DNA from: Alphaproteobacteria bacterium | Lineage (GTDB): Bacteria > Pseudomonadota > Alphaproteobacteria > Micropepsales > Micropepsaceae | Direction of reading: 5' to 3' | NCBI GenBank assembly: GCA_016792565.1 | Contig: JAEUMK010000002.1 | Location: 1 to 64,000, forward strand | Length of the DNA stretch: 64,000 nucleotides | In this document: piece by piece, positions 17,574 through 25,666 of the stretch | How positions within the stretch are numbered: position 1 is the stretch's first letter | How the letters are laid out: each line of letters starts with the position of its first letter | Notes under the pieces: model-generated | The model's database searches: none | What the model saw: only the letters and a program-made list of their open reading frames with translations | What the model was told of the DNA's origin: nothing | Position numbers and translations under genes: made by a program

Positions 17574-17624
17574 GATTCTCCGTATACGGAAGGCCGCCGA
17601 AACGGCCGAAACCCAGCCTGATTC
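17574..17624. promoter_or_regulatory. Two GANTC sites in the argD-gcrA intergenic region
   Basis: GATTC at 17574-17578 and again at 17620-17624 are candidate CcrM methylation sites upstream of gcrA. In Caulobacter, GcrA acts at promoters carrying methylated GANTC. A TTAAC half-site, possibly CtrA-like, follows near 17649. Function is inferred only. Confidence 0.4.
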
Positions 17625-17766
17625 GTGGAATGTTCCTGTGAGCGGACGTTAACGAAGCCTTGTGCCATCGGGCCCTTCATGGTCCATATTTGGTATGCGG
17701 TTTGGGGCGACGGGAAGCGCCGACACAATCGCTAGGGGGTCATTTCTCAAAACCGAAGGGGACGCC

Positions 17767-18237
17767 ATGTCCTGGACAGACGAACGGATCGAGCGTCTGA
17801 AGCAGCTGTGGGGCGAGGGTCTGAGCGCCAGCCAGATCGCCCGGGCGCTGGGCGAAGTCACGCGCAATGCGGTCATCGGAAAGGTGCACCGACTGGGGCT
17901 CGCCGGGCGGGCGACGGCCCCCCGCGTCGAGCGTCCGCGCCCTGCACCGCAGCCGCGGCTGCATACGCCGCGCGTCGCGACCATGCGGGCCGAGCCGGTG
18001 GCCGAGGAGCCGCTGGAGCCGATGCCCGAGAATGCCGTCACGGTCGTCGATCTCTCTGCCTCCGTCTGCCGCTGGCCGATCGGCGACCCGGCGACGGCGG
18101 AATTCCGCTTTTGCGGCCGCAAGGCCAAGCCGGGCGCCCCCTATTGCGAGGCGCATGTCCGGATGGCCTATCAGCCGGCCCAGAGCCGCCGCGATCGCGA
18201 CCGCGAGATCGCTCGCCGGAAGCTGAACTTCGGCTGA
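17767..18237 (+). CDS. gcrA: Cell-cycle transcription regulator GcrA
   Basis: GcrA (156 residues) is the alphaproteobacterial regulator that binds sigma-70 RNA polymerase and CcrM-methylated promoters. The N-terminal DNA-binding region is clear: MSWTDERIERLKQLWGEGLS, SASQIARALGEVTRNAVIGK, VHRLGLAGR. A Pro/Arg-rich linker follows, then the C-terminal sigma-binding domain with CRWPIGDP, FRFCGRKAKPGAPYCEAH (Cys/His) and RRKLNFG. ATG 17767 with GAAGGGG upstream matches the family start; the longer frame from 17662 is not used. It diverges from argD and converges on phoB. Confidence 0.97.
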   Translation: MSWTDERIERLKQLWGEGLSASQIARALGEVTRNAVIGKVHRLGLAGRATAPRVERPRPAPQPRLHTPRVATMRAEPVAEEPLEPMPENAVTVVDLSASVCRWPIGDPATAEFRFCGRKAKPGAPYCEAHVRMAYQPAQSRRDRDREIARRKLNFG

Positions 18238-18311
18238 CCGGTTCAGCCCGGCTATCCCAAGGCCGTCCAGGGGGCGGCCATGGGGATCTGCGGCATGCAT
18301 AAGGATTGGAG

Positions 18312-19037
18312 CTAGCTCGCCGCGCGGGCTGGCTCGTCGGTCTTCAGCGACTCGTCGAGCGAATAGCCGGCCGAACGCACCGTGCGGATCGGGTCCCGCT
18401 CGCCATCGGCGATCAGCGCCTTCCGGAGGCGGCCGATGTGGACATCGACCGTACGCGCCTCGACATAGACGTCCGATCCCCACACCGCGTCCAGAAGCTG
18501 TTCGCGGCTGAAGACGCGGCCGGGATGCTGGATCAGGTGGTCGAGCAGCTTGTACTCGGTCGGCCCCAGATGGATCTCTCTGGTCCCGCGGCGTACCCGT
18601 CGCGCCACACGGTCGATCGCGATGTCGCCAAACGTCGCCGACTCCTCGGCCAACGCCGGGCGGATGCGGCGCAGGACGGCGCGGATACGCGCCGACATTT
18701 CTGTCACCGAGAACGGCTTGACGACATAGTCGTCGGCGCCGGTGTCGAGCCCGCGGATGCGGTCGGTCTCCTCGCCGCGCGCCGTCAGCATGATGATCGG
18801 CGTGTTGCGCGTTTCGGACTTGGCGCGCAGCCGACGGCACACTTCGATGCCGGAGAGGTTCGGAAGCGCCCAGTCCAGAAGGATGAGATCGGGCGCTTCC
18901 TCGGCGGCGACGATGAGCGCTTCCTCGCCGTCCCTCGCCTCGACGATGCGATAGCCTTCGCGCTCCAGATTGTAGCGCAGCATGGCGATGATCGCGGCCT
19001 CATCCTCGACGATCAGGATGGTGGGTTTGGCGGACAT
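18312..19037 (-). CDS. phoB: Phosphate regulon response regulator PhoB
   Basis: OmpR-type response regulator of 241 residues. The receiver domain has the acidic pair Glu11-Asp12, phospho-acceptor Asp55 in LILLDWALPN, LTARGEE and the DDYVVKPF lysine. The winged-helix output domain contains LGPTEYKLLDHLIQHPGRVF, SREQLLDAVWGSDVYVEART and VDVHIGRLRKAL, the last two typical of PhoB. ATG 19037 gives the family N terminus MSAKPTILIVEDE. It is the last gene of the phoR-phoU-phoB group, 10 bases after phoU. Confidence 0.97.
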   Translation of the reverse strand: MSAKPTILIVEDEAAIIAMLRYNLEREGYRIVEARDGEEALIVAAEEAPDLILLDWALPNLSGIEVCRRLRAKSETRNTPIIMLTARGEETDRIRGLDTGADDYVVKPFSVTEMSARIRAVLRRIRPALAEESATFGDIAIDRVARRVRRGTREIHLGPTEYKLLDHLIQHPGRVFSREQLLDAVWGSDVYVEARTVDVHIGRLRKALIADGERDPIRTVRSAGYSLDESLKTDEPARAAS

Positions 19038-19047
19038 CGCGATCGGC

Positions 19048-19764
19048 CTAGGGCGCGGATTCGTAAGGCACGGCGGTCGAACTGGTCGCATCGCCCTTGG
19101 GGCGGTCCTCGCCCAGATAGGTGCCGCTGACCAGATAGGTCACCTGCTCGGCGATATTGGTCGCGTGATCGCCGACGCGCTCGAGGTTCTTGGCGACGAA
19201 CAGGAGATGGGTGGCGAGCGAGATCGTGCGCGGGTCTTCCATCATATAGGTCAGCAGTTCACGGAAGAGCGAGTTGTAGAGCTCGTCAATTTCCTCGTCC
19301 CGGCGCCAGACCGCTTCGGCCGCCGCGACATCGCGCGCCGCATAGGCGTCGAGAACGGCCTTGAGCTGTCCGAGACACTCGCGGCCCATGCGGATCAAAC
19401 CCTGGGTCAGTCGAAGAGGCTGTTCGCGGTTGAGAACCAGCGCGCGTTTGGCAAGGTTCTTGGCGAGGTCGCCGATGCGCTCGAGCTCGTTTGCGATCCG
19501 CAGGGCCGAAACGGTCAGCCGAAGATCGACCCCGACCGGCTGGCGCAGCGCCAGGACCTTCACCGCCTCGCCTTCGATCTGACGCTCGAGATCGTCGATC
19601 CGGCGATCGGTCTCGATCATGCGGTCGGCGAGCGCGGAGTCGCGCCGCGCCACGGCATCGATGGCGCCTTGCAGCGCCGCCTCGACGACCCCGCCCATCT
19701 GGGCGACGTGGGTAGACAGGGCTTCAAGTTCGCCCTCATAGGATTTGACGAGATGTTCCGCCAC
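19048..19764 (-). CDS. phoU: Phosphate signalling regulator PhoU
   Basis: PhoU (238 residues, GTG start with AAGGGGG upstream) is a cytoplasmic three-helix-bundle repeat protein that couples the Pst transporter to PhoR. Both repeats carry the metal-binding signature: ALRIANELERIGDLAKNLAK in the first and LLFVAKNLERVGDHATNIAE in the second. It sits between phoR and phoB, with a Pho-box-like element 47 bases upstream of its start. pstSCAB are absent here although they commonly lie between phoR and phoU. Confidence 0.97.
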   Translation of the reverse strand: MAEHLVKSYEGELEALSTHVAQMGGVVEAALQGAIDAVARRDSALADRMIETDRRIDDLERQIEGEAVKVLALRQPVGVDLRLTVSALRIANELERIGDLAKNLAKRALVLNREQPLRLTQGLIRMGRECLGQLKAVLDAYAARDVAAAEAVWRRDEEIDELYNSLFRELLTYMMEDPRTISLATHLLFVAKNLERVGDHATNIAEQVTYLVSGTYLGEDRPKGDATSSTAVPYESAP

Positions 19765-19810
19765 GGCCGGCCCCCTTGGATCAGCCGCTCATACGGTGCG
19801 GACTGCGCGC

Positions 19811-19843
19811 CTTTGTAACGCTTAAATGACAGTTTTATGAAGT
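19811..19843 (-). promoter_or_regulatory. Pho-box-like triple direct repeat upstream of phoU-phoB
   Basis: Reading the minus strand, three 11-base units run head to tail: ACTTCATAAAA, CTGTCATTTAA and GCGTTACAAAG. The middle unit contains a perfect CTGTCAT, and the 7+4 spacing is that of PhoB-binding Pho boxes. The element overlaps the phoR stop and ends 47 bases before phoU, which implies an internal autoregulated promoter for phoU-phoB. Confidence 0.65.
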
Positions 19844-21001
19844 CGCTCGCGCGCGGAGCACAATCGTGAAGCGGCTGCCCTGCCCAGGCTCGCTTTCGAT
19901 CTCCAGTCTTCCGCGGTGGCGATTGAGGATGTGCTTGACGATCGCTAGACCGAGCCCGGTGCCGCCGCGCTCACGGCTGGCCTTGGCATCGACCCGGTAG
20001 AATCGCTCGGTCAGGCGCGGCAGATGCTCGCGCGCGATGCCTGGCCCCTTGTCGGCCACGGCGAGACGGACGACAGGCCCCGAGGGGTCCTGTCCGCTGG
20101 TGAGCCGGATGGTTACGTCGCCCCCGTCGCCACCATACTTGATGGCGTTGTCCAGCAGGTTCTGGACGACCTGGATCAGCTCGTCGCGCTCGCCGGCAAC
20201 CGGCGGTACGGTGCCTTCGACCTCGATCGGCACACGGATCCCCGCGCGAGCAATTTGCGGCTGGACCGCATCGACGACATCTCGCGCGATCGCGGCGAGA
20301 TCGGCCGTGCCCAGCGGCAGGACATGCTCGTTCAGTTCGATCCGCGAGAGCGAAAGCAGATCGTCGATGAGGCGTCTCATGCGATCGGCCTGGGTCTGCA
20401 TGATCTCGAGAAAGCGCGCCTGCGCCTCTGGGTCGTCTCGCGCCGGGCCCCGGATGGTCTCGATGAACCCGGCCAGGCTCGTCAGGGGCGTGCGCAGTTC
20501 ATGACTGGCGTTGGCGACGAAGTCGGCCCGCATGCGCTCGACCCGGGCGATCGCCGTCATGTCACGCAGCAGGACGAGGACCAGGGCCTCAGGGGCGGCC
20601 GCGCCGAGCGCAGCGACATGCGCCTCGATCGTGCGCTCGACCGGGACCGGCAATGTGAAGCCGATATCCTCGGGCGGCCCGGCCTGCGCGACGCGTTCGA
20701 TCGCCTGGATCACCGCGGGCACGCGAAACGTGGCGACAAGGGGTTTGCCCTCGACGGCCCCGGTGAGGTCTCCCGCCGCCTGGTTACGCATGACGACGCG
20801 GCCTGTCGTGTCGACCAGCAAGCAGGCGTCGGGTAGCGCCGCCAAGGCCTGGCGCACGAGGTCCAGGGTCGACAGATCGCCGCGCGCCGCGGCCTGCGAG
20901 GTGTCCAAGCGCGCGCCACGTCTGCGTCCCCAGCCAAAGCCCAAGAGACCGGCAGCGGTTACGCCGGCCAGCGCGACGACGAGGGTTGCGGCGGCATCCA
21001 T
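19835..21001 (-). CDS. phoR: Phosphate regulon sensor histidine kinase PhoR
   Basis: Membrane histidine kinase of 388 residues. Order: one or two N-terminal hydrophobic segments (residues about 3-25), a PAS-like domain (about 48-150, ending LRDMTAIARVERMRADFVAN), the HisKA domain with phospho-accepting His167 in NASHELRTPLTSLAGFIET, and an HATPase domain with NLLDNAIKYG, ADKGPGIA and GGTGLGLAIVKHI. ATG 21001 is preferred to a longer frame reaching into the upstream gene. No large periplasmic sensor domain is present, as is normal for PhoR. It begins 7 bases after the dienelactone-hydrolase stop, so transcription may continue from that gene. Confidence 0.95.
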   Translation of the reverse strand: MDAAATLVVALAGVTAAGLLGFGWGRRRGARLDTSQAAARGDLSTLDLVRQALAALPDACLLVDTTGRVVMRNQAAGDLTGAVEGKPLVATFRVPAVIQAIERVAQAGPPEDIGFTLPVPVERTIEAHVAALGAAAPEALVLVLLRDMTAIARVERMRADFVANASHELRTPLTSLAGFIETIRGPARDDPEAQARFLEIMQTQADRMRRLIDDLLSLSRIELNEHVLPLGTADLAAIARDVVDAVQPQIARAGIRVPIEVEGTVPPVAGERDELIQVVQNLLDNAIKYGGDGGDVTIRLTSGQDPSGPVVRLAVADKGPGIAREHLPRLTERFYRVDAKASRERGGTGLGLAIVKHILNRHRGRLEIESEPGQGSRFTIVLRARATS

Positions 21002-21008
21002 CACGGCG

Positions 21009-21842
21009 TCAGGCAGCGCCGTTCGCGGCGAACCATGCGAGCATCTTGGCCCACGCATCTGCTGCGTCAGCCTCGACATAGCTGGGCCGATAGTCCGCGT
21101 TGAAGCCGTGCGGCGCTTCGGGATAGACGATGATCCGGGATGGCGAACCCGCGGCCGTCAGGGCGGCGTTCATCCGCTCCACGGTATCGAGCGGAATGCC
21201 CTGGTCCTTGCCGCCATAGAGCCCGAGCACCGGGGCCTTGAGATCGGCAGCGACGTCGATGGGATGCTTCGGCCGCAGGGCGTTGGATTCTCCCACAAGG
21301 CGGCCGTACCAGGCTGCGCCAGCCTTCAGCGATGGATTGTGGGCGGCGTAGAGCCAAACGATCCGGCCGCCCCAGCAGAAGCCGGTGATGGCGAGCTTCG
21401 CCGAGTCGGCGCGCTCCGAGGCCGCGAAGGACGCGGTCGCATCGAGGTCGGCCATGACCTGCGCATCGGGAACCTTCGAGACGATGTCCTCCACGAGTTT
21501 ATCGATGTCGGTGTAGGGCGCCGGGTCGCCCTGGCGCGCATAAAGAGCGGGGGCGATGGCGTAGTAGCCGGTCCGCGCGAGACGCCGGCAAAGATCCTTG
21601 ATGTGCTCGTGGACGCCGAAAATCTCCTGCGTGACGATGACCACCGCCTCGGCGGTTCTCCCTGCCGGGCGCGCGCGATAGGCCGGTATCGCGCCGTCGG
21701 CGACGGGAACCTGCACTTCGGCAATGTCCAGACCGTCGGCGGGCGTCGCGATCGCGCTTGCAGCGACCGGAGACACCGCCGCCGCGAAGCCCGCGCCCAG
21801 GGCGGTTATCGAGAAGGCACGGCGGCTCAGCACTGCTGTCAT
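21009..21842 (-). CDS. Dienelactone-hydrolase-family protein, Tat-exported
   Basis: Alpha/beta hydrolase of 277 residues. The N terminus [19 protein letters not shown] is a twin-arginine-type signal, so the enzyme is probably exported folded. The catalytic triad of the dienelactone hydrolase type is visible: the cysteine nucleophile in GFCWGGR, Asp in YGGKDQG and His in EAPHGFNAD; the [12 protein letters not shown] motif is also typical. It lies just upstream of phoR, which is unusual, and may be co-transcribed. Carboxymethylenebutenolidase activity is known for the family; the real substrate is unknown. Confidence 0.9.
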
Positions 21843-21867
21843 GACGTTCTCCAGATGGGGGCACGAT

Positions 21868-21902
21868 CAACAAGAAGGGCGGGCAGATCGCTCTGCCCGC
21901 CC
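21868..21902 (-). terminator. Terminator of the CVNH-repeat gene
   Basis: A perfect 10-bp stem (GGGCGGGCAG pairing with CTGCCCGCCC) with a 6-base loop is followed on the minus strand by TTCTTGTTG. It lies 40 bases past the stop of the CVNH-repeat gene. Confidence 0.8.
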
Positions 21903-21942
21903 GGTTACGCTCAAATGACCTGCTCGATCAATCGTCCGATCG

Positions 21943-24900
21943 TCATTGCGGCACCGCGCACTCAGCCGGAAACGCCTCGGCATGAGCGGGATTGGCACAG
22001 TCGAGCGGGCATTCATTGCCGACATTGGCCGGATCGTTGCAGTCGAGAGCCGCCGGTTCAGGCTCGGCCACAGGCTCGGGTTCCGGCTCAGGCACCGGCT
22101 CGGGTTCGATCATCGGCTCCGGCTCGGGCTCGGGCACCGGCTCAGGTTCGATCACCGGTTCCGGCTCGGGCTCCGGCACCGGCTCGGGTTCGACCACCGG
22201 CTCCGGCTCGGGCTCCGGCGTCGGCTCGGGCTCGGCCACAGGCTCGGGTTCCGGCTCCGGCGTCGGCTCGGGCTCGACCACGGGTTCCGGCTCGGGCTCC
22301 GGCGTCGGCTCGGGCTCGATCACGGGTTCCGGTTCGGGCTCCGGCGTCGGCTCGGGCTCGATCACCGGCTCCGGCTCGGGCTCCGGAGTCGGCTCGGGCT
22401 CGATCACCGGCTCCGGTGTCGGCTCCACCACCGGCTCTGGCGTCGGCTCCACCACCGGCTCTGGCGTCGGCTCCACAGTAGGTTCCGTTGTGGGCTCGGG
22501 GGTCGGTTCCACCACCGGCTCCGGCGTCGGTTCCACAGCGGGTTCCGTTGTGGGCTCGGGGGTCGGTTCCACCACCGGCTCCGGTGTCGGCTCCACAGCG
22601 GGTTCCGTTGTGGGCTCGGGGGTCGGCTCGACCACCGGCTCCGGCGTCGGTTCCGCAGCGGGTTCCGTTGTGGGCTCCGGCGTCGGCTCGGGAGTGGGCT
22701 CCGGCTCGGGTGCCAGACCTTCGGTCGCCGCAGCGCCGGGGACGGTCTGCGGGCAGGCCTCCGGATTGGCGGCGGCCTGGGCCGGGTCGCTGCAATCGGC
22801 GACCGGAACCGAGTCTGGATCGAGCGGTTGGCCGCTATCGTCCGTGCCCTGGACCGGCGGCGCCGTCTCCACCTCGTCCGCCGCGGCGACCGGATCGACC
22901 GTCTCGACGGGGACCGGTGGCGGCTCGTCAGGGGTCGGCGGGGCGATGGCCGCCTCCGGTTCCGGAGGCGTGAACCCCTCGCAGGCCAACTGCCCGTTGA
23001 GATTGACGATCGGCTTGTCGCCGCAATCGGCGACTGGCAGGGCGGTCGGAATCCAGGCGCCGCCTTCGTTGAGGCACTCGGCCGAGAGAACCCCGCCCGA
23101 AAGCGTCCCGTTCCGGCAGGACGAAACCCAATCGCCGGCCGGCAAGGCTTCGGCGGCCTTGGCTGCCGCCTGGTCGGGCGTCAGGACGACGCCGTCATTG
23201 CCGACGCCCGGCGCCACATCGGCCACCGCCACCTCCGGCGCCAGCTGCGAGGCGACGCCGGCGCAGCCGAGTTCGCCGCTCTCGTTGTAGATGTCGCCGG
23301 TGCACTGGGCGTAGGGCAGCGAGGTCGGGTTCATCGCGCCGTCGGGCCTGGCGCAGTCGGCGGTCAGGTAGTCGGCGCTGACGGCCGCGTTCTGGCAGGT
23401 CTGCTGATAGGATCCGCCGGGGAGCGCCAGCACCACCGGCAGCGGCACGGGAGGCTCGACGCCCGCGCAGGTCAGGAAACCGCCGGAATTGGCGATATCG
23501 CCGGTGCAGGCGCGATAGTCGAGCGCCGTCGGCATGAACGCGCCCGCGCCGTTGGCGCACTCGGCGCTCAGGAAACCGCCGGCCGCCGAAGCGTTGCGGC
23601 AGCTCTGCTGATAGGAGCCGGGCGGCAGGTCCTCGACTTCGATCACCGGAGCGGGAGGCGGCGGCGCACAAACCAGTGCGCCGTCGCGATTCTCGACCGG
23701 CAGATCGCAGGCTGCGACGTCGATCACCGCGGCACGCCAGCCGCCGTTCGCAGTCTGGCACTCGGCGTTCAGCAGACTGCCGTTCATGGCCGCGTTGCGG
23801 CAGCTGCGCGCCCAACTCCCCACCGGGAAGGCCTGGGCGGGCGGGTTGCAGGCCAGTTCGCCGTTGCGGTTCTCGACCGGGGCGGAGCAGGAGCGGGTAT
23901 CGAGTTCGGTGTCGCGCCAGTTGCCGCGGCCGTCGCGGCATTGGGCGACAAGCCAGAATCCGTCCCACGTCACGTTCCGGCAGCCATCGACCCAGGTGCC
24001 GGAAGGCTGCTCGGGGCGCACCCTGCCGCAGCTCAGGCCGCCATTGTCGTTCTCGATCGGATAGGGGCAATAGCGCACGTCGATGGCGCTGGAGCGCCAA
24101 CCGCCGCGCTGGGTCCGGCACTCCGCGCTAAGGACGTAGCCGTCGAACGACGCGGCGCGGCAGGTATTGGCCCAGCCGCCGGCCGGCAGGACGAAGTCAC
24201 GCTCGCGACGGCGCTCGGGGCGCCACGAACTGTCGCAGTAGAGTTCGCCGCCATAGTTGAAGATTTCGGACGAGCAGTCCGTCCAGCGGATCTCCGCGAA
24301 ACGCCACTCGCCGCGCCAGCCGATGCACTGGCCGTACAGCCAGTCGCCGTAGACGGTCACGTCGCGGCAGGATTCGTACCAGGTGCCGACCGGCAAATAG
24401 TAGAATTCGTCCGGCAGAGGCTCGTAGTAGGGTTGATCGTCATAGGGGTCGCGCGGCGGCGGCGGCGGACGGCGCGGCGGCGGCGGCACGCGCACCACGA
24501 CGGGGGCGGGACGCTTGTAGTCCCGGCCGCAGACCAGGCGGCCGCCGTCGTTCTCGACGCCGGTCGGGCACTTGCGCCAGTTGATCTTCGTGACCTTCCA
24601 GCGGCCGCGCTTGTCGCGGCACTCGGCCGAAAACACCGCACCTGTCACGGAAGCGGCGCGGCAGGAGCGCTGCCAGCCGCCGCGCGGGGCATAGGGACGC
24701 GACGCCGCGGTCAGCGGCACCGGAAGGTTGATGCGGGTGCGCTCGATGTCCTTGTCGCACACCAGCGTTCCGCCGATATTGGTGATCGTGGTGCCGCACT
24801 TGCGCCAGTTGACGAGCGAAACGCGGGACCCGCCTTCCCAGTCCGTGCAGCGCGCGGCGAGCAGGTCGCCGGCGACGTCGAAGCTGGCGCAGGTGGCAGC

Positions 24901-25533
24901 CCACGAGCCGCGCGGCACGAAGCGCTTGCGCTCGCAGGCGAGGCGGCCGTCCGTCGCCACGCCATAGCCGGTCCGGCAGGAGCCGTCGCGGAGGGACGAG
25001 GCGATCCAGCGGCCGCGTGAGTCGAGGCACTCGGCCTTGAACATGCCGCCGGAGACCCCGAAAAGGCGGCAGGAACGCGCCCACGAGCCCATGGGCCGTT
25101 CCCCCGGGAGATCGCAGACCAGGCGCCCGTCCTTGTTGAGCAGCGCTGTCGGACAATCGGCGACGCTGACGCGCGTCTTGCGGAAACGCCCATCGGCACG
25201 CCGGCACTCGGCGCCCAGAACCCGCCCGTCGAAGACGAAGGACCGGCAGGCGCTGGTCCACAGGCCGGCAGGCAGCGCCGACCGGCGGACGCAGACGAGC
25301 TTGCCGTTGTCGTTACGAATGTCGCCGAGGCAATCGGCGACCCGGGCGAGCTTGACCGACTTCGCCTTGCCGGCCTTGTCGCGGCAACGCGCCGAGAGCG
25401 TTCCGTCTCTCGATACCGAGGCCTTCTCGCAGCTCTTCAGATAGGATCCGGGCGGCACGGCGGGCTTCGCCTCCGCCGCCGCGAAGGACAGGATTGCCGC
25501 GCACAGGGCGGCCACAGCAAGACGAAGTCGCAT
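21943..25533 (-). CDS. Large secreted protein with about twelve CVNH-like repeats and a Pro/Glu stalk
   Basis: A 1196-residue exported protein; ATG 25533 has GAGGA upstream. Residues 1-22 form a signal peptide ending AAAEA. Residues 27-851 hold about twelve units of roughly 55-60 residues. Each follows the pattern PxGSWxxSCR, then a G-containing strand, LSAECR, GxWxxTxI, a third Cys, IxNxxGxLxC. Four Cys per unit and the spacing fit the cyanovirin-N homology (CVNH) fold, a carbohydrate-binding family. A Pro-rich insert (about 342-379) separates units 5 and 6. After residue 855 come a Pro/acidic linker, a Pro/Glu repeat stalk (about 941-1160) and a C-terminal tail. Three small motifs of the type DCxDPA...C occur near 913 and in the tail. 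No membrane anchor or sortase-like signal is seen. Sugar binding is inferred from the fold pattern only. Confidence 0.85.
22048..22415 (-). repeat. 42-base tandem repeats encoding [14 protein letters not shown]
   Basis: About eight near-identical in-frame 42-base units code for the 14-residue unit [14 protein letters not shown], with V/M/A/I substitutions. They form the distal part of the stalk of the CVNH-repeat protein. Copy number could vary between strains because units are nearly identical and stay in frame. Confidence 0.85.
22435..22690 (-). repeat. 60-base tandem repeats encoding a 20-residue Pro/Glu/Thr unit
   Basis: About four in-frame 60-base units code for [20 protein letters not shown] with small changes. 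They form the proximal part of the stalk, next to the 42-base repeat block. The two unit lengths point to two separate expansions. Confidence 0.8.
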
Positions 25534-25666
25534 GGACCAGGATTCCTCAGCCGAAGCGCCCCGACACTGTGCAGGCCGCCCCATCGAGCGCAAGGGGACT
25601 CGGCCGGGGCAGTGCCGCATTGACGCATGTCATTGGTCCTGCCGCATGAACGTCCAGTGAACCGCT

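Follow-up and report, generated by a model that had tools for sequence, protein, structure and literature searches.

A predicted PhoB operator at the 3' end of phoR, directly before phoU-phoB and apart from the pst genes, in the Micropepsaceae

Three 11-base repeat units that overlap the end of phoR in an alphaproteobacterial genome of the family Micropepsaceae very probably form a PhoB operator driving phoU-phoB. The operator would descend from the promoter that follows phoR and heads pst(S)CAB-phoU-phoB in other alphaproteobacteria, the pst genes of this genome now being located elsewhere. The site was studied in a 64,000-nucleotide stretch of one contig, and the whole of this stretch is referred to as the window. 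The kind of promoter is known, and the arrangement is new: in a literature search limited to titles and abstract openings, with most subscription journals outside its scope, no description of a phoR-phoU-phoB order without pst was found among the matches listed.

Results

Sequence and setting of the site

The minus strand of the window reads ACTTCATAAAA / CTGTCATTTAA / GCGTTACAAAG from 19843 to 19811, that is, three 11-base units with a central CTGTCAT. Identity to CTGTCAT is 4/7, 7/7 and 3/7 in units 1, 2 and 3, and the units contribute 12.9, 16.1 and 7.6 bits, in that order, to the matrix score described below. The repeat is present on the phoU strand as originally predicted, and the overlap with the end of phoR claimed at the same time is borne out, with the stop codon (TAA, 19837-19835) located inside unit 1. 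The repeat also lies before phoU, as had been proposed, but at a distance of 46 bases from the GTG start (19764); the 47 bases of the original prediction are the difference of the coordinates.

The minus-strand genes are arranged in the order DLH, phoR, phoU, phoB, with gcrA convergent behind phoB (Table 1). The open reading frame of phoR spans 19835-21079 at its longest; the likely start at 21001 is 7 bases past the preceding gene. PhoR scores slightly below the TIGR02966 cut-off (325.9 versus 334.2 bits), and the cognate PhoB gene, which exceeds the cut-off of TIGR02154, is found in the same genome, 0.8 kb from the box. A large frame further upstream on the same strand (21943-25620) carries repeated cysteine-bearing segments followed, in its C-terminal part, by a long low-complexity E-P repeat (TPEPEPEPV..., window positions 21980-22715).

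Table 1. Features of the phoR-phoU junction and of the separate pst promoter
Feature	Position	Strand	Evidence or remark
PhoB box (predicted), three 11-base units	19811-19843	-	sequence, matrix, model R1, family footprint
-10-like element TATGAG	19788-19793	-	TA = 19793-19792, footprint positions 51-52
phoR stop codon TAA	19835-19837	-	within unit 1 of the box
phoR, sensor kinase	19835-21001	-	TIGR02966, 325.9 bits; HisKA, HATPase_c
phoU, first gene 3' of the promoter, GTG start	19048-19764	-	TIGR02135, above cut-off
Ribosome-binding-like AAGGGGG before phoU	19777-19771	-	sequence
phoB, response regulator, 10 bases past phoU	18312-19037	-	TIGR02154, 344.1 bits, above cut-off
DLH gene, precedes phoR	21009-21842	-	
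Terminator-like hairpin, upstream of the DLH gene	21877-21902	-	consensus match alone
pstS promoter box	L155 (contig C55) 1616-1648		triple box, TA at the same 17-base spacing

Scoring of the repeat

A Pho box was defined as at least two head-to-tail 11-base units with 7 well-conserved bases, following the description in the accessible part of PMC4415409. Ranking by simple consensus matching was dropped. With up to 3 mismatches allowed, the pattern CTGTCATNNNNCTGTCAY matches the genome 138 times and its backward-read control 72 times, figures that cannot rank the window site, which itself matches the pattern at 3 mismatches only. A 33-column matrix was trained on 41 boxes that follow phoR in loci with a distant phoU, all from alphaproteobacteria of other families (41 of 42 such loci; L028, with phoR split into two matches, was left out). 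Training takes the best site per region at any score, and those of L009, L010, L035, L037 and L048 are weak and may not be real; 36 of the 41 training regions score above 22 bits.

A scan with a PhoB position matrix had been suggested as a check on the original prediction. With this independent matrix the window site, its three units in register, scores 36.6 bits, compared to 8.4 for the runner-up among the 127,936 positions of the window. Simulated sequence with the three-base context of the window (3 Mb, one strand) contains no position of 14 bits or more, and 200,000 shuffles of the 33-mer gave none equal to the site score (best 24.0).

A second model, R1, is a profile without structure built from 30 of the training boxes, 11 of the 41 (near copies and weak ones) being excluded. 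Applied to the 3.07-Mb genome at E<=10, with 150 of 267 first-look candidates scored, R1 returns two matches: the promoter of pstS, located on contig C55, at 17.8 bits (E 0.014), and the window site at 17.6 bits (E 0.017). The E-values are only roughly calibrated and that of the window site is modest; the ranking is clear. In the relative G003, R1 finds further matches in L227 (E 0.11) and L228 (E 1.3). The match in L227 (minus strand, around 1501) is a PhoB-box-like array of repeated units; the pstS box of G003 is some 10 kb away.

Conservation in the family

A phoU match was found in 87 of 96 family genomes, which yielded 88 phoU-upstream regions; phoU matches that were secondary or incomplete (G036, G039, G041, G068 and G072) were left out. 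In 85 of the 88 regions phoR directly precedes phoU, and within the stretch examined it was not found in L119, L199 and L203. The box reaches at least 14 bits in 85 of the 88 regions (all except L203, L200 and L133), at least 20 bits in 81 and at least 30 bits in 52. Column-permuted matrices reach 14 bits in a mean of 0.1 of the 88 regions and 20 bits in none, and the reversed matrix does so in 9 and 0 regions, respectively. All five regions from the window's own genus have the box (33.0-36.6 bits), which overlaps phoR in two of them.

In the alignment, reduced to 68 non-redundant family regions, the box holds 1.28 bits per column, the sequence upstream of it 0.15 and the 17 bases between box and TA 0.31; the TA itself holds 1.93, and the sequence beyond it falls to 0.10. 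The TA is located 17 bases past the box in 59 of the 68 regions (9 lack it). The same spacing is seen in 28 of 36 phoR-to-pst promoters (8 lack the TA), and the pstS promoter of the window genome shares it. The -10-like TATGAG of the window was located from this alignment and not from a sigma-70 scan; a sigma-70 consensus scan of 17600-22000 found no standard promoter. The -35 position would fall in the third unit of the box, as would be expected if PhoB replaces the -35 element.

Of the 88 family loci, 70 have the phoR stop within the box, at box position 20 (52 loci), 9 (11 loci), 11 (6 loci) or 17 (one locus), and in these loci the box encodes the tail of PhoR, for example ...VTEML or ...LTAS before the stop. 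In 15 loci the box is wholly outside phoR, with a median of 33.0 bits as compared to 31.5 for the 70 overlapping loci. As the stop occurs in two frames and the box is equally strong outside phoR, it is the DNA site that is conserved, and not the PhoR tail.

The same promoter before pst in other alphaproteobacteria

Named records contributed 80 loci, 50 of which carry phoR on the phoU strand and upstream of that gene; the other 30 are outside the junction counts. The 50 were chosen by likeness to the PhoU of the window and are not a random sample. In 42 of these 50 alphaproteobacterial loci phoR is 1.0-5.7 kb from phoU, a distance comparable to that taken up by all or some of the pst genes. In 40 of the 42 the C-terminal motif of PstB lies ahead of phoU, its end 8-114 bases away; the motif search found none before phoU in L050 and L072. 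Where phoR is distant in this way, none of the 42 regions directly before phoU reaches 8 bits.

Eight named-record cases are adjacent, and five of them (L001-L004 and L007) were treated as genomes already present in the family set. Across all eight loci (10.6-16.7 kb) tblastn detected no pst gene, counting as queries the Bradyrhizobium PstS and PstC and the four Pst proteins of the window genome, with two spurious Bradyrhizobium frames discounted. The window has what marks the alphaproteobacterial phoR/pst promoter, a triple box immediately past phoR and, downstream of it, the TA at an identical distance; the genes that follow are phoU-phoB and not pst. The original prediction was of a PhoB-controlled internal promoter for phoU-phoB. 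As far as the sequence goes, PhoB control is supported by the conservation, the spacing of the TA, the presence of PhoB and the like box before pst. The role as a PhoB promoter is the likely one, and the word internal is secondary, since elsewhere the same promoter heads the pst-phoUB transcript.

The separate pst locus

The genome has its own pst genes on contig C55 (pstS, a long pstC, a long pstA and pstB), located behind a triple box of their own. Compared to the window box, the first two units of the pstS promoter match the consensus pattern perfectly, and this promoter drives pstS and the pst genes that follow. Four relatives of the same genus likewise carry pst behind a separate triple box, spaced in the same way. 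By their coordinates, pst and phoU are 0.9-1.4 Mb apart in G003, G035, G083 and G084, each a single-contig genome. In six genomes from two other genera of the family the box before pstC is weaker (16-20 bits) and lacks a TA at that spacing; a separate pst locus under an equal box of its own is therefore documented for the window's genus only.

The pst operon of the window genome occupies 1744-8057 of L155 (contig C55), with a PstC frame of 877 amino acids and a PstA frame of 577. PstC frames of 878-895 amino acids are found in G003, G008 and G013, and of 352-413 amino acids in six checked g2/g6 genomes. By the length of the PstC frame, the family has two Pst types.

History of the junction

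A tree of PhoR and PhoU (59 rows, taking in 15 of the 88 family loci) has 18 rows in which phoR and phoU are adjacent and 41 with pst between them. It requires five changes of state, at least four of which are forced by well-supported branches; the direction of change is not given by the count. Outside the family, adjacent pairs are found in one genome each of Parvibaculum, Caulobacter (C. ginsengisoli) and the Hyphomicrobiaceae, with boxes of 27.1, 31.7 and 11.4 bits before phoU, respectively. We read this distribution as pst having probably been lost more than once while the promoter was retained. In two family members, L200 and L202 (G058 and G060), the phoR-phoU pair resembles that of Caulobacter on the tree, which suggests transfer or mis-binning.

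Discussion

From the sequence we infer that PhoB binds at the window site, that a transcript starts there and that it is induced. Upon phosphate starvation, phosphorylated PhoB would bind the three units head to tail, cover the -35 position and recruit RNA polymerase to the -10-like TATGAG, 17 bases downstream of the box. Expression of phoU and phoB would be raised and that of phoR would not, phoR being read from further upstream. The result would be positive feedback on PhoB, together with feedback on PhoU. The promoter that heads pst(S)CAB-phoU-phoB in many alphaproteobacteria would now abut phoU-phoB, with phoR ending inside it.

In E. coli, the gene order places the Pho box upstream of phoB and not at the end of phoR. 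The likeness of the E. coli phoB promoter to the window site lies in a PhoB site upstream of phoB, which the accessible text of PMC10294691 describes as broadly conserved in the gammaproteobacteria examined. The PhoB-controlled pstC-pstA-pstB-phoU-phoB transcript of Caulobacter crescentus (PMC11208175, from the part available) is alike in including both phoU and phoB; the window promoter differs in that no pst genes are located between it and phoU. In Agrobacterium tumefaciens, with the arrangement phoR | pstSCAB-phoU-phoB, the six genes after phoR, through phoB, rise in a mutant while phoR is unchanged; in that locus the pst genes intervene, and further promoters are suggested before phoR and pstC (PMC12501420, as far as its available text goes).

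A silent site, at which PhoB binds and no transcript starts, with transcription of phoU-phoB coming entirely from a promoter ahead of phoR, is quite improbable. The box does overlap the end of phoR, and in the available portion of PMC10294691 most PhoB sites of E. coli are intragenic without detectable regulation. The same text describes the silent intragenic sites as mostly poorly conserved, and holds that the distance to core promoter elements has to be strict. The window site has both conservation and spacing to a core-like element: a box is kept in nearly all of the family regions, more than half of the boxes reach 30 bits, the TA occurs at one spacing, and in the 15 loci with an intergenic box phoR has ended before it. 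A conserved C-terminal tail of PhoR, with no DNA site, is very improbable as the source of the repeat. Although a stop at box position 20 is common and V-T-E is among the last residues in 44 of those 52 loci, tails such as TAS, VTEML and AVT vary, the stop uses two frames, and boxes clear of phoR are no weaker. We rejected a coding constraint because conservation continues beyond the stop, into the third unit and the TA. Least probable of all, with next to no likelihood, is a repeat that arose by chance where the G+C-rich genome is locally A+T-rich. The abundance of simple-pattern matches at 3 mismatches would fit such an origin, which is contradicted by the shuffles, by the conservation in the family and by the rarity of R1 matches in the genome, and was likewise rejected.

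A different history of the same promoter has to be weighed as well, in which the order phoR-box-phoU-phoB came first and other lineages had pst inserted later, between the box and phoU. The tree would allow it, since changes are counted there without their direction. We consider it unlikely: phoU is distant from phoR, with pst between them where recognised, in most of the named-record loci (picked by likeness of PhoU), and the adjacent cases outside the family stand singly among pst-bearing relatives in Caulobacter, Hyphomicrobiaceae and Parvibaculum. We lean, with some reserve, towards loss. Several separate alphaproteobacterial lineages would have lost pst behind phoR and kept the PhoB promoter for phoU-phoB, and in the family phoR would have grown or shrunk until its stop was taken from the box. 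Selection may then keep PhoB feedback on PhoU and PhoB apart from the transporter, with the dosage of PhoU uncoupled from that of PstSCAB.

If the site acts as a PhoB operator for phoU-phoB, it would be a conserved and probably active regulatory site overlapping the end of a gene, unlike the intragenic PhoB sites of E. coli, most of which are silent. The junction would also constitute a natural experiment on the purpose of PhoU, which would be off the Pst transcript and yet under the control of PhoB. PhoB feedback on PhoU and PhoB would be separable from Pst in these bacteria, and could thus be tested alone.
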